The notes below the pieces were generated by a model. The model worked only from the letters and a program-made list of their open reading frames with translations, made no database searches and was not told the origin of the DNA. A DNA stretch of 64,000 nucleotides from Chryseobacterium caseinilyticum (lineage in GTDB: Bacteria; Bacteroidota; Bacteroidia; Flavobacteriales; Weeksellaceae): the NCBI RefSeq assembly GCF_014837145.1, contig NZ_JACYFS010000002.1, positions 283,024 to 347,023 on the forward strand. The letters are read 5' to 3'. Below are positions 191 to 63,425 of this stretch, piece by piece; position 1 is the first letter of the stretch; each line of letters starts with the position of its first letter. Position numbers and translations under genes: made by a program.

Positions 191-198
191 TAAATTTG
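191..198 (+). promoter_or_regulatory. Bacteroidota -7 element, nitroreductase
   Basis: TAAATTTG matches TAnnTTTG. The ATG follows 5 nt later, so the transcript may be leaderless. No good -33 TTG at the usual spacing. Confidence 0.55.
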
Positions 199-716: not shown

Positions 717-1034
717 TTTAACAGTGTAGCAATGTAACAATGTAACAGTGTAGCAATAAATAAGGGCGGAAATTTAGCGGTTTACCAATTTAACAGATTG
801 GGAAATTTTGTGTAGAAGTAAATACTTTTGAATTTAAGCGGGGTAGTGTCATAGCCCTGATGGCAGCGACATCCTTTTGTGTGGCGGACGGAACGGAGAG
901 GAGACCGCCATACAAAAGATACAGCGGACAGCAGGTTCCCGGCTCCTGATGATTTGAAATGGACGATCTGAAATTTGAGATTATATATGTTTTATTATTT
1001 TGAATATTAAATCCTGAATATTGAACTTTTTTCC
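717..1034. other. intergenic region with octamer repeat and dispersed palindromic element
   Basis: No gene is supported here. At 723-757 there are about four 8-bp units of the AATGTAAC/AGTGTAGC type. At 836-963 lies one copy of the hairpin-forming dispersed element described separately. The remainder is AT-rich leader sequence for rpsP. Confidence 0.8.
836..963 (-). repeat. dispersed palindromic element, copy A
   Basis: Read on the minus strand, this matches the copies at 24749-24890 and 50884-50990. Shared blocks are AGGAGC, CCGCTGTATCTTTT, CAAAAGGATG and AGGGCTA. The inner arms (about 870-886 and 907-922) are complementary with few mismatches and would form a stem of about 16 bp. Confidence 0.85.
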
Positions 1035-1748: not shown

Positions 1749-1756
1749 TATATTTG
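1749..1756 (+). promoter_or_regulatory. -7 element of rimM
   Basis: TATATTTG, with the ATG 4 nt downstream. This suggests a leaderless transcript starting at or next to the start codon. Confidence 0.6.
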
Positions 1757-1760
1757 CACT

Positions 1761-2303
1761 ATGAAAAAAGAAGATTGTTACTTACTAGGAAAGATCACAC
1801 GCAGACACGGTCTTGCCGGAAATGTAATTCTTAAATTAGATACAGACCAGCCTGAACTTTACAAAAAACTGGATTCTATTTTTGTGGAAATCAACGGTTT
1901 GCTGGTTCCTTTTTTTGTGGAAAAAACTTCATTCAGTAAGCTTGATGCACTGAATATTGCTTTTAAAAATTCTTCTGAAGCCTTAGTGGATCAGTCTTTA
2001 GGAAAGAATGTTTATCTTCCTCTGACGACTTTGCCGAAGCTTACCGGAAAACAGTTTTACTACCACGAAATTATCGGCTACGAAATTTTTGATGAGCATG
2101 ATAAAAGCTGTGGTATCATCCGTTCTGTGAATGATCAGACGGCGCAAAATTATTTTGTGACCAATCTTGAGGGTAAAGAAGTGGTGATTCCATTAATCAA
2201 AGACTGGATTCTTGAGGTTGACCGTGAGGAAAGAACGATCAAAATGCAGCTTCCTGAGGGATTGATTGATGTGTTTTTGGTGCCTTCGAAAAAGGATGAG
2301 TAG
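1761..2303 (+). CDS. rimM: ribosome maturation factor RimM
   Basis: A 180-aa protein with the RimM layout: an N-terminal beta-barrel beginning CYLLGKITRRHGLAGNV, and a C-terminal PRC-barrel-like half with the conserved ending VVIPLIKDWILEVDREERTI and a final LPEGL. It acts in late maturation of the 30S head domain. I chose the ATG at 1761 because homology begins there. The reading frame stays open upstream into rpsP, but that part is a shadow of rpsP in another frame and is cut off by the terminator at 1676-1706. The gene sits next to rpsP as in many bacteria. Confidence 0.95.
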   Translation: MKKEDCYLLGKITRRHGLAGNVILKLDTDQPELYKKLDSIFVEINGLLVPFFVEKTSFSKLDALNIAFKNSSEALVDQSLGKNVYLPLTTLPKLTGKQFYYHEIIGYEIFDEHDKSCGIIRSVNDQTAQNYFVTNLEGKEVVIPLIKDWILEVDREERTIKMQLPEGLIDVFLVPSKKDE

Positions 2304-10768: not shown

Positions 10769-10776
10769 TATCTTTG
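10769..10776 (+). promoter_or_regulatory. -7 element of rnpB
   Basis: TATCTTTG directly before the RNase P RNA. The RNA 5' end expected from the P1 helix lies about 4-6 nt after the final G, which calibrates start-site distance for other promoters in this window. Confidence 0.75.
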
Positions 10777-10779
10777 CAC

Positions 10780-11110
10780 CCACGAGAAAACCGGCCTGTT
10801 GATTCTCATTTTTTTGAGGGTAGGAAAGTCCGGACACCACAGGGCAGCAAAGCGGATAACATCCGTCATCCGCGAGGATAGGACAAGTGCAACAGAAAGC
10901 AGGTACAGTTCGGCTGTAGTGAAACCAGGTAAACTCTTTGCGGTGCAATGGTAAGTATATCGGTTCTTTTCAGAAATGAAAATAGGGGCGGCCCGTCCTG
11001 AAAACCGAGGGGTAATCAGCTCAAGTTGTGCAGCAATGTACAACGCAGATAAATAACAGGCGTCCTGATTTTTTGGGATACAGAATCCGGCTTACAGGTT
11101 TTCTCGTGGT
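10780..11110 (+). ncRNA. rnpB: RNase P RNA, bacterial type A
   Basis: The catalytic RNA of RNase P, which removes 5' leaders from pre-tRNAs. The universally conserved blocks are present: GAGGGTAGGAAAGTCCGGAC near 10825, and ACAGAATCCGGCTTACAG near 11080. The 5' end CACGAGAAAACC pairs with the 3' end GGTTTTCTCGTG to form helix P1, which sets the ends at about 10780 and 11110. The length of about 330 nt is normal. A TAnnTTTG promoter lies immediately upstream. Confidence 0.97.
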
Positions 11111-18933: not shown

Positions 18934-18941
18934 TATCTTTG
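18934..18941 (+). promoter_or_regulatory. -7 element, membrane protein gene
   Basis: TATCTTTG with the ATG 4 nt downstream; another leaderless-type layout. Confidence 0.55.
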
Positions 18942-18945
18942 TTTC

Positions 18946-19539
18946 ATGGGATTTATTCTTTCTTTGGTTTTTGTAATTCTGGTACTCTCGCTTTTTCTTT
19001 CAAAAGTCAGAAAAGGACGGGCTGGCGAACTGGCCAGACTGTTTAGGATTTTAAGTCTCGTTTTTGCCATTTCACTTTTTACCTATTGGTTCATCAAAAA
19101 AAGTACAATCAGGATTGTTGATCATTCTGTTTCGCTTCAGCTGATCAATAAACTTCCGCAGGCGCTCGATTTTTATCTTATTAAAGTTAACAGAAGTGCG
19201 ACGGAACAGGCCTTGGAAACCAGCCACATCGGAAAAATCCGCCCCGAATATTACCGTGTGGAGTATCTTTCCATGAAAAACTCAGATGAATACTGGATTG
19301 CTGGTTATCTTGGCAAAAAAAATCTGGTTTATTTCTCACAGCATTCTGTACCCAATAAAAATATGGATCAGATGATTGAAGTTCAGAATTACATCAATCA
19401 AAGTGAAAAACTGTCAGCGATTGCAAAAAAGGAGATTGAGGAAGACAATTACCAGAATATGTTTTCTGGAATTTGGGTTACCCTCAATTTGCTTCTTATT
19501 TTTCTGAATCTTGTTTTGATATTGCGGAAGAAAAATTAA
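18946..19539 (+). CDS. hypothetical membrane protein
   Basis: A 197-aa protein with an N-terminal hydrophobic segment (about 1-19), a second (about 31-50) and a C-terminal one (about 172-193), enclosing a soluble domain of about 115 residues. No family recognised. Its end overlaps by 4 bp the end of the convergent DUF72 gene, so the two transcripts run into each other. Confidence 0.65.
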   Translation: MGFILSLVFVILVLSLFLSKVRKGRAGELARLFRILSLVFAISLFTYWFIKKSTIRIVDHSVSLQLINKLPQALDFYLIKVNRSATEQALETSHIGKIRPEYYRVEYLSMKNSDEYWIAGYLGKKNLVYFSQHSVPNKNMDQMIEVQNYINQSEKLSAIAKKEIEEDNYQNMFSGIWVTLNLLLIFLNLVLILRKKN

Positions 19540-24748: not shown

Positions 24749-24890
24749 TAGGAGCAGAAAATTTTGTCTGTCTCCTCACTGTTCTACCTGCTTTCCGCTA
24801 TATCTTTTTTGTGATTGAGGACAACATTATTTTATCATTTTCACTTTTCTGCCACCGCAATCACAAAAAAGGATGCCGCTGCAATCAGGG
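24749..24890 (+). repeat. dispersed palindromic element, copy B
   Basis: Outer blocks CTGCTTTCCGCTATATC and GGATGCCGCTGCAATCAGGG flank the arms ATCTTTTTTGTGATTG and CAATCACAAAAAAGGAT, complementary over about 16 bp. The loop is longer than in the other copies. Confidence 0.85.
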
Positions 24891-24963
24891 CTAAGACGAC
24901 GTTTTGTTTTCCCTCACCATTGAATCCCGTTTTTGCGAGGAACGAGGCAATCCATTAATAAGT

Positions 24964-37581: not shown

Positions 37582-37775
37582 GACTCTTCGGCAGGCTCAG
37601 AGTGACACAGTGGAAGCTATAAAATGATAAGTCTTTCAATATACCGAACTTCAAATCTCGAATCCCGAATCTCGAATCTCAAATCTCGAATCTTGAATCT
37701 CAAATCTTGAATTTTTGAATTTTGAATTTTGAATTTCGAATCTCAAATCTCAAATCTCAAATCTCAAATCTCAAT
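37582..37775. repeat. dispersed CTTCGGCAGGCTCAG repeat and AATCTCA-type array
   Basis: GACTCTTCGGCAGGCTCAGA at 37580-37599 is a fragment of a common dispersed repeat. From about 37650 to 37775 there are many units of CGAATCT/CAAATCT, ending in repeats of CTCAAAT. The array runs into the leader of the AAA gene and, if translated upstream of the true start, gives SQISNLKSQIS. Confidence 0.85.
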
Positions 37776-37795: not shown

Positions 37796-37803
37796 TATAT
37801 TTG
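37796..37803 (+). promoter_or_regulatory. -7 element of the AAA-protein gene
   Basis: TATATTTG with the ATG 3 nt downstream and a TTG 16 nt upstream (37777-37779). Leaderless-type layout. The promoter lies within the repeat region and separates it from the start codon. Confidence 0.55.
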
Positions 37804-37806
37804 AAT

Positions 37807-39162
37807 ATGAAGCTTACAGAACTCGCACACGAACTCAGCATAACTCCCGAAGCCATTAAAAGATTTATTCAGGATTTTGATCTTGATCTCGGAGAGTGTA
37901 TTTCCACCAATTTTGAGGTAAAAGATGATTTTGAAAAATTTGCCCGCGAAAATTCAGATTTTCTGCGTCAGTACGAGAAAGATCTGGATGAAAATAAATC
38001 GGCAAAAGAAATAGCCGAAACCATAAAACAACCTCAGGAAAAGGTTGAGAAAGTTATTAAGGAAAATCAGAATAATATTTTCGACAACGGTTTTTTCAGA
38101 TCATCGGTTTCCAGTTTTGGGGTTGATCAGAAACTGGGCGGAAACTATCAGTTCGTTTACAATTATTTCGGAAATAAAACCAGCCTGCAAAAAAGAGATT
38201 TTATCGGTTACCGTGATCTGTTCTTTTATATTTCAGGAGTTTTGGAACCGTTTTTAAATCCTCAGCAGATCAAAGACTGGGGAATTCATAAGCCTGCAGG
38301 AATTATTTTATATGGGCCTCCCGGAAGCGGAAAAATTTTCTGGGCTCACAAAATTGCTGAAATCATCAGCTATGAATTTAAGGAAATCAAAAAACATTAC
38401 CTCTCAACTTCTTTCGTAGATGGTACCCAGACGAGTTTCAACGATTTTCTGCTTACAATACTTAAAAACGGAAAGACGGCTCTCTTTCTGGAAGACTTTG
38501 ATGAAATAATGATGGACAGAAATCCCGAGAACAGTATTGCCGCATGCAATCTGGAAACGCAGGAAGTTATTCTTCACCACATCAGCAGATTCACTTCGGA
38601 AAATATTCTGATGTTGGGTTCGGCCAATTCTGTCTCGGAAATTGATGAAGAAATCCTCGCTCCCGGCAGATTTGATGTTTTAGTTCCTGTTTTTCCTCCC
38701 AACGCCGCTGAGAGAGCGGAGATTATTCTGTATTCAATGCTGAAAGGTCTTGAAGAAGATTCTTTACTCTACAAAATTCTGAAACACAACAAAGCAGATA
38801 AAATTCCGTTCTGGCATACGGTTTCGGGGAGAATGAAAACGTTCAGCAACACGATGATAATCGATTTCAGCCAGAGTTTAAAGAAGAGAATTAAAAATCT
38901 CTATCAGAAAACGAGAAACGAAAAATTAATCATCGATCAGAATCTGATCAATTCTGCGCTTCGGGAAGCTGCCGCGAAACTTACTCCCGAATACCTCGAT
39001 CAGGTGGCTCAGTTTCTTAACGATGCAGTGATTAATAATCTTGAAGATTTTCAGTCGAGAATAAAAGCATTAAAATCAGAACTGGAATCTTACAAAGCTG
39101 TGGAGCCGCCGCGGCGTGCGATAGGTTTTCAGCACAATGAAGGAGAAGATAAAAAAGGTTGA
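37807..39162 (+). CDS. AAA-type protein with IF2N-like N-terminus and degenerate ATPase motifs
   Basis: A 451-aa protein. The first 45 residues (MKLTELAHELSITPEAIKRF) resemble the N-terminal helical module of translation factor IF2. An AAA domain follows, but Walker A is GPPGSGKI (residues 170-177), where Ile replaces the Thr/Ser that holds magnesium, and the Walker B end reads LFLEDFDEI, with Glu229-Asp230 where Asp-Glu is usual. The sensor 1-like GSANS and APGRFD arginine region are present. The C-terminal 100 aa are helical. The start at 37807 is set by homology and the promoter. ATPase activity is uncertain. Confidence 0.8.
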   Translation: MKLTELAHELSITPEAIKRFIQDFDLDLGECISTNFEVKDDFEKFARENSDFLRQYEKDLDENKSAKEIAETIKQPQEKVEKVIKENQNNIFDNGFFRSSVSSFGVDQKLGGNYQFVYNYFGNKTSLQKRDFIGYRDLFFYISGVLEPFLNPQQIKDWGIHKPAGIILYGPPGSGKIFWAHKIAEIISYEFKEIKKHYLSTSFVDGTQTSFNDFLLTILKNGKTALFLEDFDEIMMDRNPENSIAACNLETQEVILHHISRFTSENILMLGSANSVSEIDEEILAPGRFDVLVPVFPPNAAERAEIILYSMLKGLEEDSLLYKILKHNKADKIPFWHTVSGRMKTFSNTMIIDFSQSLKKRIKNLYQKTRNEKLIIDQNLINSALREAAAKLTPEYLDQVAQFLNDAVINNLEDFQSRIKALKSELESYKAVEPPRRAIGFQHNEGEDKKG

Positions 39163-50883: not shown

Positions 50884-50990
50884 TTAGGAGCTAATCCGGC
50901 TATCCGCTGTATCTTTTTTGCAGCGGTCTCCTCTTCGTTCCGTCCGCCACAAAAAAGGATGCCGCTTCTATCCGGGCTAGTTTTGAAAGA
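50884..50990 (+). repeat. dispersed palindromic element, copy C
   Basis: GGAGCTAATCCGGCTATCCG, then CTGTATCTTTTTTG, an inner loop of CTCCTCTTCGTTCC type, and CAAAAAAGGATGCCGCTTCT then ATCCGGGCTAG. Its inner arms pair as in copies A and B. Copy A is the reverse of it, at 836-963. Confidence 0.9.
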
Positions 50991-59881: not shown

Positions 59882-60607
59882 TTACTTCTTTCGAAATAAA
59901 TTAATACATCTCGGTGAAACTTCTGCGTCAAAATCATTCAGCTGATAATCGCCCCAGATTTTCACCCGCTCAAAACCATTATCCTCAGCGTATTTTTGTA
60001 TTGAATCTGGTGTGTGCAGTTTTACTTTTTCGAAAAAATTAAAATCCTGCCCGTCAGCGGTAAATTTAATTTCTTTTACAATATGCTGATTTTCGATTTT
60101 CTTGGAAATTTTAAAATCAATTCCACCACGGTTAATTTCAGCTTCAGATACCATTTTATTTCTGACGTAATTTTCATTTAAATAATCTAAAACGAAATAT
60201 CCGTCAGTTTTCAAAACATCAGAAACAGATTTAAATACTTTTCGGTCATCGTCTTCAGAATCAAAATAGCCAAAACTTGTAAACAGATTGAAAACAGCAT
60301 CTACGGGCTGATGGTTTACTTTGTCACGCATATCGTGAACAGCGAACTGGAGGTTTTCATTCTCAAACTGCCTGTTGTGTGCAATACTTTTTTTAGAAAG
60401 ATCAAGACCCAAAACTCTGTAACCCAATTTGTTCAAGAAAACAGAATGTCTTCCCTTTCCGCAGGCGAGATCAATAATTTCTGAATTTTTTGGGAGTTGC
60501 AGCTCGGCAGTCAGCTGAGTGATAAAATTTTCTGCTTCAGTATAATCTCTGTTGCTGTAGAGAATATGATAATAAGGTGTGTCAAACCAAGATTCAAACC
60601 ATTCCAT
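59882..60607 (-). CDS. class I SAM-dependent methyltransferase
   Basis: A 241-aa methyltransferase. The SAM-binding motif IIDLACGKGRHS (about residue 45), motif with GLDLS, and the catalytic-side FTSFGYFDSEDDD are visible. N-terminus MEWFESWFDTPYYHILYSN is typical of a small-molecule methyltransferase family in Bacteroidota. Substrate unknown. It is first of three minus-strand genes reaching the ZIP gene, with 21 bp to the next. Confidence 0.88.
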   Translation of the reverse strand: MEWFESWFDTPYYHILYSNRDYTEAENFITQLTAELQLPKNSEIIDLACGKGRHSVFLNKLGYRVLGLDLSKKSIAHNRQFENENLQFAVHDMRDKVNHQPVDAVFNLFTSFGYFDSEDDDRKVFKSVSDVLKTDGYFVLDYLNENYVRNKMVSEAEINRGGIDFKISKKIENQHIVKEIKFTADGQDFNFFEKVKLHTPDSIQKYAEDNGFERVKIWGDYQLNDFDAEVSPRCINLFRKK

Positions 60608-60772
60608 CGTGCAAAAATAAGGATTTTTGTTGGATGCGTGATGTAAGATGCCAGATGTTTATTTAACAGTATTAAAATTATAAATAATCTGTCGGTGATG
60701 AAATATGTTCTGAGATTACACATTTTTTATTTTCATCCCGCATCAAACATCCAACACCCAGTAAAAATTACC
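60608..60772. repeat. GATG-type simple repeats in a divergent gap
   Basis: GGATGCGTGATGTAAGATGC then CAGATG at about 60635-60659, and ATCCCGCATCAAACATCCAA at about 60736-60755. They are weakly complementary and resemble the CCGCATC array at the window start. Confidence 0.55.
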
Positions 60773-60780
60773 TATTTTTG
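60773..60780 (+). promoter_or_regulatory. -7 element of the RlmL-like gene
   Basis: TATTTTTG, 4 nt before the ATG; leaderless-type layout. Confidence 0.6.
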
Positions 60781-60784
60781 CAAA

Positions 60785-61954
60785 ATGAATACAGAAAATT
60801 TAAAAATACAGATAAAAACTTTTTTCGGACTTGAGCAGGTGCTTTTTGAGGAGATCAAAAAACTTGGCGGTGCCAATGTTGAGCTTAAAAACCGGGCTGT
60901 AAACTGCGAAGGAGATCTTGGATTTTTATATAAAATAAATTATTCTGCCCGTACAGCCCTGAAAATTCTGGTGCCGATTTATGAATTTAAAGCCTTTAAT
61001 CAACATCAGTTTTATAACAAACTTTCGCAGTTTCCCTGGGAAGATTTCCTGGATGTAGACCAGACTTTTGCGATCGATTCCACTGTGAATTCTGAAACAT
61101 TCAAACATTCTCAGTTCGTTACTCTGAAGATGAAGGATGCGATTGTAGATTATTTTCAGGAGAAATTTAAGAAAAGACCCAATATCGAAACCAGAAGTCC
61201 GGAAATCAAATTTCACCTGCACATCGACAGAGAACTGGTGACGATTTCTTTGGATTCTTCCGGTGATGCTCTGTTTAAAAGAGGTTACAGAAGAGAGCAG
61301 GGTGAAGCGCCCATCAATGAAGTTTTGGCAAGTGGAATGTTACAGTTGGCTGGCTGGGACGGAAAAGGAAATTTTCTAGACCCGATGTGTGGTTCGGGAA
61401 CGATCCTGATTGAGGCTGCAATGATTGCACTTGATCTTCCGGCTCAGATTTTCAGAAAGAGATTTGCTTTCCAGAACTGGAATAATTATGATGCCGATTT
61501 GTTCGCAAAAATAAAAGAAGTCAGAATCAACCGTGTGAGAGAATTTACCGGAAAGATTGTTGGCTACGATTTAGACGGAAGAATGCTGAATGCCGCAAGT
61601 ACAAACATAGAATCTGCCGAAATGGAAGATATCATTGATGTAAGAAGACAGGATTTCTTTGAGTCCAAGAAAGATTTATTCCCATTGCTGATGGTTTTCA
61701 ATCCGCCTTATGATGAGAGAATTTCGATTAATGATGATGATTTCTATAAAAAAATTGGTGATACATTTAAAAGCAGCTATCCTAATACGCTAGCATGGCT
61801 GATCTCTTCAGATTTGGATGCTCCCAAGAAAATCGGATTAAGACCTTCAAGAAAAATCAAATTGTTCAACGGTAAACTGGAAACGAGATTTTTGCAGTAC
61901 GAAATGTATGAAGGTACGAAGAAGGTGCATAAACTGGAGAATAGAGAAGAATAA
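60785..61954 (+). CDS. THUMP domain rRNA methyltransferase, RlmL-like
   Basis: A 389-aa enzyme of the RlmL-type 23S rRNA guanine-N2 methyltransferases. A THUMP-like RNA-binding domain covers about residues 45-165 and the catalytic domain the rest: the SAM site FLDPMCGSGTILIEAA, the substrate motif FNPPYDER (NPPY), and YDLDGRMLNAASTN. The start at 60785 is chosen because the upstream in-frame stretch is non-homologous and lies before the -7 box. It methylates a 23S rRNA guanine; the exact site is inferred. Confidence 0.92.
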   Translation: MNTENLKIQIKTFFGLEQVLFEEIKKLGGANVELKNRAVNCEGDLGFLYKINYSARTALKILVPIYEFKAFNQHQFYNKLSQFPWEDFLDVDQTFAIDSTVNSETFKHSQFVTLKMKDAIVDYFQEKFKKRPNIETRSPEIKFHLHIDRELVTISLDSSGDALFKRGYRREQGEAPINEVLASGMLQLAGWDGKGNFLDPMCGSGTILIEAAMIALDLPAQIFRKRFAFQNWNNYDADLFAKIKEVRINRVREFTGKIVGYDLDGRMLNAASTNIESAEMEDIIDVRRQDFFESKKDLFPLLMVFNPPYDERISINDDDFYKKIGDTFKSSYPNTLAWLISSDLDAPKKIGLRPSRKIKLFNGKLETRFLQYEMYEGTKKVHKLENREE

Positions 61955-61956
61955 AT

Positions 61957-62046
61957 ATGTCTTTTGATTTCTTTGATGGTTTAGATTTTCTTGCAGATTT
62001 ATTGAGTGTAGATTTGTCTTTTAAATCATCTTCAAATACTAAATAG
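61957..62046 (+). CDS. possible 29-aa small protein
   Basis: ATG two bases after the RlmL-like stop; translation starts MSFDFFDGLDFLADLLSVDL and is acidic and hydrophobic. It would be translationally linked to the methyltransferase. Very short and without support from homology; may be chance. Confidence 0.2.
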   Translation: MSFDFFDGLDFLADLLSVDLSFKSSSNTK

Positions 62047-62091
62047 AGTAAATATTCAGAAAAATCAAAATATACTACAGAAATATGAAGT

Positions 62092-62130
62092 GGAAGCTTT
62101 CTTGTGATGGCTTCCGTTTTCTATTTTATT
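62092..62130 (+). terminator. probable terminator
   Basis: Stem GGAAGC/GCTTCC followed by T-rich sequence (GTTTTCTATTTTATTG). Confidence 0.65.
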
Positions 62131-62145
62131 GTTTTTAAAAATCCT

Positions 62146-62356
62146 ATGCCTGAAGAAAATAATTCACAGACGTTGATAATCTGTATTCTCGCTGGCTTTT
62201 TGCTTTCTTTTATTGTGTTTTTCTGCCTTTATCATCTTGGGCTTTTTTTATTTTAAGAATTTGTCTAAACTTTTATTATTCAGCATCTCTTTAATTTTAC
62301 TTACGATCTCAATCGTTTTAATTGTTTATTTTAAACTTCTTCTATCTGACAATTAA
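62146..62356 (+). pseudogene. small two-helix membrane protein gene broken by a frameshift
   Basis: The ATG at 62146 opens a 36-codon frame (MPEENNSQTLIICILAGFLL then a hydrophobic helix) that stops at 62254-62256. In the next frame the reading continues YFKNLSKLLLFSISLILLTI and further, a second hydrophobic helix, to a stop at 62354-62356. The two join exactly at a run of seven T (62243-62249): losing one T gives a 69-aa two-helix protein. It is a frameshift, a slippage site, or a sequencing error. Confidence 0.6.
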
Positions 62357-62380
62357 AAACACAAATTATTCAAAAATACA

Positions 62381-62410
62381 TTGAGATTTCTTTTCAAATT
62401 TTTAATTTTG
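62381..62410 (+). promoter_or_regulatory. promoter of the glycosyltransferase gene
   Basis: TTG (62381-62383), 19 nt, TAATTTTG (62403-62410): a full match to the Bacteroidota consensus. The ATG is 4 nt downstream. Confidence 0.75.
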
Positions 62411-62414
62411 AAAA

Positions 62415-63425
62415 ATGTTCAGTCAAAAACCTACACTTTCTATTATTGTCGCTATTTTTAACCGAAAAGACGAACTTTTCGAGCTTCTCAATTCTTTAAA
62501 TGCTCAGACTGATAAAGATTTTGAAGTCATTATCGTAGACGACGGTTCTTTGATTGATCTGAAACCGACAGTTCATCAGTTTGAAGATATTTTAACGGTG
62601 AAATATTTCAGAAAGGACAATTCGGGACCTGGGCTGTCGAGAAATTACGGCTCAAAAAGAGCTTCTAACGAATGGTTGGTTTTTGTAGACAGTGATGTGA
62701 TTGTAGAATCAGATTACATTGAAAGTATTAAAAAGAGTATTGCAGAAATTCCGTGTGATGCTTTTGGTGGGGCAGACAAAGCGCATAAAGGTTTCAACCT
62801 TATGCAGAAAGCCATTTCGTATTCTATGACTTCCGTTTTTACGACAGGAGGAATCAGAGGAAATAAAAAAGCGGTTTCAAAGTTTCAACCCAGAAGTTTC
62901 AATATGGGTGTGAAGAAAGAAGTTTTCGAAAAGGTGGGCGGTTTTTCTGAAATGAGAATCGGTGAAGATCCGGACTTGTCGATGACGCTATGGGAAAATG
63001 GTCTTACCACTGCGTTTTTTGATAATATTGCTGTCTATCATAAAAGGAGAGTTGATTTTGGTAAATTCTCAAAACAGGTGTATCAGTTTGGTTGTGCGAG
63101 ACCAATTCTTAATCAGAGACATCCAAAATATGTGAAAATATCGTTTGCATTTCCGACGTTGTTCTTTTTGGGATATATTTTAGGCGTTATAGAAAATTTT
63201 GTTTTGGGCAGAGGGATTATTCTTGCTTTCTATGGCATCTATACTTTTATGGTTTTAATTCATGCACTGATTGTCACAAAAAATATTGCTATCGCCGGAA
63301 TGGCGGTTATTTCTACCTACATACAGATGTTCTCGTACGGTTACGGATTTTTAAAATCATGGATTTTACTTAATATTTTAAAGAAGAAACCTGAAGACGC
63401 TTTCCCGAAGCATTTCCATAAATAG
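62415..63425 (+). CDS. glycosyltransferase family 2 protein
   Basis: A 336-aa GT-A fold glycosyltransferase. The N-terminal Rossmann part has IIVAIFNRKDELFELLNSLN, DFEVIIVDDGS and the metal motif in FVDSDVIVES, then EDPDLSMTLWENG as the catalytic-acid region. C-terminal hydrophobic segments (about 245-262 and 270-300) suggest a membrane-bound enzyme. Donor and acceptor unknown; probably surface polysaccharide or glycolipid synthesis. Confidence 0.92.
   Translation: MFSQKPTLSIIVAIFNRKDELFELLNSLNAQTDKDFEVIIVDDGSLIDLKPTVHQFEDILTVKYFRKDNSGPGLSRNYGSKRASNEWLVFVDSDVIVESDYIESIKKSIAEIPCDAFGGADKAHKGFNLMQKAISYSMTSVFTTGGIRGNKKAVSKFQPRSFNMGVKKEVFEKVGGFSEMRIGEDPDLSMTLWENGLTTAFFDNIAVYHKRRVDFGKFSKQVYQFGCARPILNQRHPKYVKISFAFPTLFFLGYILGVIENFVLGRGIILAFYGIYTFMVLIHALIVTKNIAIAGMAVISTYIQMFSYGYGFLKSWILLNILKKKPEDAFPKHFHK

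Follow-up and report, generated by a model that had tools for sequence, protein, structure and literature searches.

Genes and TAnnTTTG boxes in the window

The window, by which we mean the whole stretch of 64,000 nt analysed here, contains seven protein-coding genes with a TAnnTTTG box ending a few nucleotides before the ATG, and these are labelled c1 to c7 in Table 1. A sequence-only reading had listed six of them as leaderless candidates; all six boxes and their ATGs were found exactly where it had placed them, with distances from box to ATG (hereafter gaps) of 5, 4, 4, 3, 4 and 4 nt for c1 to c6, respectively. A seventh box, which it had missed, is located on the minus strand and is separated from the ATG at 60607 by the four nucleotides CACG. 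The start codon is ATG in seven of the seven cases (the genome survey below took in ATG starts only), and all seven boxes match TAHHTTTG, the form of the -7 element. The 197-aa product of c3 had no match in Pfam or NCBIfam.

The rnpB gene had served as calibration for the sequence-only reading, with the same box 4 to 6 nt before the RNA end. That box is present, separated by 6 nt from position 10783, where the match to the Rfam RNase P model starts. The TTG that had been placed exactly 19 nt upstream of the c6 box was also found there. In-frame start candidates upstream of the ATG exist for c2, c4 and c5; c1, c6 and c7 are clear on both sides, and c7 has no in-frame start codon between the upstream stop and its ATG. 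Three copies of the Flavo-1 RNA motif scored above the gathering score in the window, at 849-942 (plus strand), 24780-24896 (minus strand) and 50889-50982 (minus strand).

Table 1. Boxes and associated genes in the window
Feature	Position	Strand	Basis
c1 -7 box TAAATTTG, gap 5	191..198	+	sequence
c1, nitroreductase-family protein, 170 aa	204..716	+	
c2 -7 box TATATTTG, gap 4	1749..1756	+	sequence
c2, RimM, 180 aa from ATG 1761	1761..2303	+	TIGR02273 above cut-off
rnpB -7 box TATCTTTG, calibration point	10769..10776	+	
c3 -7 box TATCTTTG, gap 4	18934..18941	+	sequence
c3, 197-aa protein	18946..19539	+	
c4 box-like sequence TATATTTG, gap 3	37796..37803	+	sequence
c4, AAA ATPase, 451 aa from ATG 37807	37807..39162	+	
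c7, SAM-dependent methyltransferase, 241 aa	59882..60607	-	
c7 -7 box TATTTTTG, gap 4 (CACG)	60612..60619	-	sequence
c5 -7 box TATTTTTG, gap 4	60773..60780	+	sequence
c5, RlmL-like THUMP methyltransferase, 389 aa from ATG 60785	60785..61954	+	
c6 promoter TTG, -33-like element, 19-nt spacer	62381..62383	+	
c6 -7 box TAATTTTG, gap 4	62403..62410	+	sequence
c6, GT2 glycosyltransferase, ATG on predicted transcript start	62415..63425	+	

Excess of boxes next to start codons in the genome

The boxes were counted in 40 stretches of 20 kb from the same genome together with the window, 864 kb in all. Genes were predicted with a home-made caller that relied on coding potential and the type of start codon and ignored upstream signals; genes truncated at the ends of stretches are missed, and its starts are uncurated. 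Of 654 genes called, the 631 with an ATG start and 120 nt of upstream sequence entered the gap counts. Gene c1 stands outside these counts because it is absent from the calls. TAHHTTTG was found 23 times at gaps of 3-6 nt, 4 times at 7-13 nt and 76 times at 14-26 nt, against means of 1.6, 2.8 and 5.6 and maxima of 7, 8 and 12, respectively, in 200 dinucleotide shuffles. At gap 4, a box was present before 12 of the 634 ATG starts that had been called, compared with 14 of the 26866 remaining ATGs.

Since the window was chosen for its layout, and is indeed rich in it (6 of 55 starts at gap 3-6), the count was repeated without it. Boxes at gap 4-6 were then found at 17 of 576 ATG starts, compared with a mean of 0.92 and a maximum of 5 in 500 shuffles. 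There were none at gaps 0-3, 4 at gaps 7-13 (shuffle mean 0.99, maximum 6) and 71 at gaps 14-26 (shuffle mean 4.25, maximum 14). Of 579 called starts, 7 had a box at gap 4, compared with 14 of the 24998 remaining ATGs (odds ratio 22, p 2.6e-7). In the sampled stretches the layout near the ATG is therefore above chance, also without the window. Over the whole genome the pattern occurred at 130 sites with gap 4; its reversed form gave 48 sites, and the phase-matched gap 10 gave 37. The -33 element (TTTG about 17-20 nt upstream) did not serve as a class marker, with no outstanding spacing among the 23 leaderless-type or the 76 leadered boxes of the genome sample; in F. johnsoniae the -33 element is also weak, according to the excerpt of PMC6847099 consulted.

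Box positions in related genomes and across the phylum

The same pipeline was applied to 20 stretches from each of four further genomes: one of the same genus (G095), one of another genus of the same family (G216) and two (G057 and G103) of another family of the same order (f2), which we take to be Flavobacteriaceae. Pooled over the five genomes, gaps 0 to 13 held 1, 0, 0, 2, 22, 12, 7, 6, 2, 2, 3, 2, 3 and 4 boxes, and gaps 14 to 20 held 10, 8, 18, 28, 17, 18 and 21; the window contributed one box at gap 3 and five at gap 4. An onset at exactly 4 nt fits a transcript start 4 nt after the box, because a closer box would cut the AUG, and it agrees with the box-to-start spacing of F. johnsoniae, which in many sequences is 4 or 5 nt from the -7 element (PMC6847099, from an excerpt).

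The four genomes had 7 (G095), 4 (G216), 3 (G057) and 5 (G103) boxes at gap 4-6, with means of 0.42, 0.56, 0.50 and 0.39 and maxima of 2, 3, 4 and 3 in 200 shuffles each, so that the count of G057 lies inside its shuffle range. The trough at 7-13 nt was missing in G216 and G057, where that bin (6 boxes in each) was not below the 4-6 bin. A clean trough is therefore a feature of the genome studied here and of the pool, and not of each genome. Boxes at gap 4-6 made up 22 of 177 in this genome with the window and 17 of 156 without it, compared with 8 of 156 in the two f2 genomes (Fisher p 0.02 for the count with the window), and we make no claim that leaderless genes are more frequent in Chryseobacterium than in other families.

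For the phylum, 148 genomes were surveyed for sites at gap 4 and at gap 10, which has the same codon phase, with sites inside genes included. Only these two gaps were compared, because gaps 3 and 5 differ from gap 4 in codon phase; a whole-genome distance profile from raw pattern counts was dropped on the same ground, and the raw count at gap 3 was raised in many of the genomes. The tally covered 106 of the 148 genomes, 37 from the nine families of the same class and the remainder from the four largest of the families outside this class, and its statistics treat sites as independent. Within the class, gap 4 exceeded gap 10 in all 37 genomes (2954 versus 1445 sites). The corresponding counts outside the class were 697 versus 543 in f21 (18 genomes), 194 versus 151 in f15 (30 genomes) and 679 versus 641 in f14 (13 genomes). 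The reversed-pattern control was less uniform: G126, of the same class, had 82 gap-4 sites versus 124 reversed ones, and G049 and G107 were nearly even.

One family stood out in this tally. In f22, also outside the class (8 genomes: G027, G059, G086, G101, G105, G113, G136 and G144) the counts were 202 at gap 4 versus 35 at gap 10, a ratio of 5.8 and the highest of the 13 families tallied; this Bacteroidota family may use leaderless starts far more often.

The divergent methyltransferase genes c7 and c5

Relatives of c5 numbered 154; loci for comparison were taken from the best 80, of which 78 are titled Chryseobacterium and 2 are Weeksellaceae MAGs; the best named match of c5 was Chryseobacterium sp. 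Leaf394 (99%). In all 80 of these loci c7 keeps its ATG and has the box at gap 4. An order-wide search with c7 matched 94 of 119 genomes, and the best 30 loci were examined. The gap was 4 in all 14 loci of the same family (the window's own included, with two further genera represented, and some of the loci from the same species as among the 80). Together with L144, of another family, 15 of the 30 loci had the box at gap 4-6. In the rest, the gap was 14-17 in four (three of f2 and one of f38), no start was usable in four, and no box was found within 52 nt in seven.

Over 44 distinct 40-nt upstream sequences (94 rows) all eight columns of the c7 box are invariant. The columns further upstream mostly vary, and the sequences form 8 clusters under 60% identity; exceptions are CAAA at -22 to -19 (conserved at 91-98%) and, on the other side of the box, CA at -4/-3 (91 and 95%). 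With this record c7 is the best-supported leaderless candidate.

The box of c5 behaves differently among the same best 80 of 154 relatives, being at gap 4 in 15 loci and at gap 11 in one; the other 64 loci lack a box within 52 nt. Leaderless transcription of c5 is plausible as a lineage-specific trait. The divergent region between the two genes (60608-60784) was observed in two forms, and 15 of the 80 loci have gap-4 boxes for both genes.

A conserved promoter box and a probable shift of the start codon at the glycosyltransferase gene c6

Gene c6 is present in 61 of the 80 loci drawn from the best 80 of 154 c5 relatives. The box is aligned in 58 of the 61, lying at -12, the distance seen in the window, in 45 and at -13, with one extra base, in 13. 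Of 59 loci with a box, 56 have a TTTG at spacing 20 and three an xTTG at spacing 19 as the -33 partner. The start codon is less constant. In 44 of the 61 loci the first possible in-frame start past the stop is a TTG situated 13 nt beyond the box, and in 12 there is a TTG at 14 nt; in six of these 12 the start is less certain because a further in-frame TTG lies upstream of the box. Among the exceptions, L065 has an ATG at 17 nt, L054 and L067 have a TTG and no box, and L095 has a different upstream region. The ATG at 4 nt of the window is found in only one other of the 61 loci, that of Leaf394 (L041), a near-identical genome, which counts against the leaderless reading. Since this ATG occurs in two genomes, a sequencing error is disfavoured.

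In the window, CAA occupies the place of the old TTG codon, and 6 nt ahead of the ATG there is an in-frame TGA. The use of AUU as a general start in the c6 relatives was considered and rejected, because the extra base in 13 loci puts out of frame the ATT that occupies the position of the window's ATG; 12 of these 13 keep the in-frame TTG and the thirteenth, L065, has its ATG at gap 17. In most relatives the TTG would lie about 9-10 nt into the predicted transcript, and the window and Leaf394, which lack that TTG, have an ATG on the predicted transcript start itself. The promoter of c6 would thus be ancestral, with the start codon apparently moved onto the predicted transcript start, and it is plausible that c6 is leaderless in this lineage specifically.

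Between c5 and c6 lie 460 nt (61955-62414) in which the plus-strand reading frames are short, up to 50 aa; this interval may hold a small gene.

Conservation of the boxes of c1 to c4

For the remaining genes, the locus counts include the window's own locus. The search with c1 matched 33 of 40 genomes, and 30 loci were taken, 28 of them with a usable start. The box was at gap 4-6 in 10 of the 28, at 14-26 in six and at 27-52 in two, and no box was found within 52 nt in 10; in L168, scored among the latter, an in-frame ATG further on is preceded by a box at gap 4. The search with c3 gave 21 loci, 20 with a usable start, of which 10 had the box at gap 4-6, two at 7-13 and one at 14-26, and seven had none within 52 nt. 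Support for leaderless transcripts at c1 and c3 is fair.

The rimM gene c2 was matched in 38 of 40 genomes, and 30 loci were taken. The gap was 4 in three, 2 in one and 14-52 in seven, with no box within 52 nt in the other 19, and c2 is plausibly leaderless as a lineage-specific case. For c4 the loci L232-L249 were used, and L250-L261, which matched in the ATPase domain only (about 25%), were left out. A usable start was present in 16 relatives, none of which had a box within 52 nt, and was lacking in one further relative. The gap of c4 is 3, and therefore the predicted transcript start would fall inside the ATG. With no relative carrying a box, c4 is not supported as a leaderless gene, and its box-like sequence is probably due to chance. 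A short tandem repeat with a CAAATCT-like unit lies directly upstream of this sequence, at about 37736-37775.

The proposal that all six listed genes are leaderless thus has to be narrowed: five of them can be read in this way, and c4 is not supported.

Leaderless transcripts and the alternatives

In this genome a promoter core is placed for initiation on the start codon more often than expected by chance. We consider it likely that the boxes are sigma-A promoters of leaderless mRNAs. The reasons are the excess at gap 4-6 with its abrupt lower limit of 4 nt, the scarcity of boxes at 7-13 nt in this genome, their renewed abundance at 14-26 nt and the conservation at several of the genes. The boxes would be the -7 elements of ordinary sigma-A (sigma-ABfr) promoters, from which RNA polymerase would start 4-5 nt past the box, at the A of the ATG or 1-2 nt before it, and the ribosome would enter the resulting mRNA at its 5'-terminal AUG. 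Both the transcript ends and the leaderless translation in this strain are what we infer from these data.

An excess of this kind might also arise from translation initiation or base composition, the region before starts being A/T-rich, with no promoter involved. The columns before starts are indeed A/T-rich, and an A at -3 is described as aiding translation in F. johnsoniae (from an excerpt of the source). However, column shuffles that keep this composition gave a mean of 0.98 and a maximum of 6 boxes at gap 3-5 in 500 shuffles, against 18 observed in the window and the 40 stretches. The exact motif ranked ahead of its other 839 anagrams (first of 840) in the 3-6 nt peak and again in the peak at 14-26 nt, and the c6 box of the relatives has a TTTG partner at the spacing of a promoter. 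We therefore give hardly any credence to this explanation. That the assigned start codons are wrong, with the true starts downstream and leaders of normal length, is also very unlikely. An in-frame TTG 18 nt downstream of the c3 ATG does offer an alternative start, and in most c6 relatives the start codon lies about 9-10 nt further in. Against this, the next in-frame start lies 195 nt downstream in c1, 123 nt in c2, 54 nt in c5, 135 nt in c6 and 171 nt in c7, and the ATG of c7 is kept without exception among the 80 loci compared (the best 80 of 154).

A less remote alternative, although still an unlikely one, accepts the boxes as real promoters and ascribes expression mainly to promoters further upstream or to read-through, with the leaderless transcripts as minor products. 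It draws on c6, which follows c5 in the same direction after 460 nt and could be read through from it, and on rimM, with its 19 of 30 loci lacking a box within 52 nt and several loci located shortly after the stop codon of what is probably rpsP. Read-through does not suit c7 and c5, however, which diverge across a gap of 177 nt, so that neither can be read there from a co-directional neighbour; and the plus strand from the end of c5 to the start of c6 has no TAHHTTTG other than the box at 62403. The reading of the boxes as promoters of leaderless mRNAs remains the one that we favour.

Comparison with other Bacteroidota and significance

Leaderless genes had been expected to form a notable group here. 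The layout does exceed chance, but leaderless or short-leader mRNAs have already been measured in Bacteroidota, at about 4-13%, and since such cases are published the class itself is already known. According to the excerpts consulted, in F. psychrophilum, where mRNAs at 890 CDSs were examined, 5.5% were leaderless (PMC9723704), 13% of the predicted transcripts of F. johnsoniae have leaders of 10 nt or less and 87% leaders over 10 nt (PMC6847099), and dRNA-seq of B. thetaiotaomicron, a distant member of the phylum likewise with short 5' UTRs, found about 3.7% of them shorter than 10 nt (PMC7366714). The two Flavobacterium species share with our case the phylum and the sigma-A -7 consensus TAnnTTTG, as far as the excerpts go; unlike theirs, the Chryseobacterium class is read from sequence, and the 16S rRNA tail lacks CCTCC. 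The tail in this genome (L342) is GGCTGGAACATCTCATTTT / AACATCTCATTTT, in agreement with published reports that Chryseobacterium, Elizabethkingia and Riemerella have no CCUCCU anti-Shine-Dalgarno (PMC6107228; PMC10783764 is an additional source on its absence; both consulted in part). A survey of TA-like signals used the same logic as ours, in which a promoter signal at a fixed distance before the start codon marks a leaderless gene, and reported such genes in 1 of 37 Bacteroidetes/Chlorobi genomes (2.4%) (PMC3160421). In the part consulted it sought Pribnow-like signals, unlike the TAHHTTTG used here, and its authors thought that Bacteroidetes were perhaps underestimated, yet that high missed percentages were unlikely.

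What this analysis adds is conservation at the level of single genes, a lower limit of 4 nt for the gap and the shift of the start codon at c6. That shift, conservation followed gene by gene and the scarcity of boxes at 7-13 nt go beyond the consulted parts of PMC9723704 and PMC6847099. Our literature search, which covered titles and the openings of abstracts and had most subscription journals outside its coverage, found none on mapped transcript starts in Chryseobacterium.

A broader proposal is possible, and we put it forward tentatively and with considerable doubt. In Chryseobacterium and closely related bacteria, for which an absence of the anti-Shine-Dalgarno CCUCC is reported, leaderless initiation may be a regular and conserved second mode of gene expression. 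Leaders may in effect have two states (0-2 nt versus about 10 nt or more) with few in between, and genes may switch between the states during evolution, some by moving the start codon onto a fixed transcript start, as at c6. The count without the window and the shuffle range of G057 weaken the words "regular" and "two-state".

If the proposal is true, the question arises why this genome seems to have so few leaders of about 3-9 nt. Leaderless genes would be readable from sequence alone in a group without Shine-Dalgarno signals, whose absence leaves the choice of start codon there poorly understood, and this would aid start-codon annotation. Conserved genes for testing would be named, above all the methyltransferase gene at 60607 (c7), and c6 would provide a natural before-and-after pair, from a leadered TTG to a leaderless ATG.
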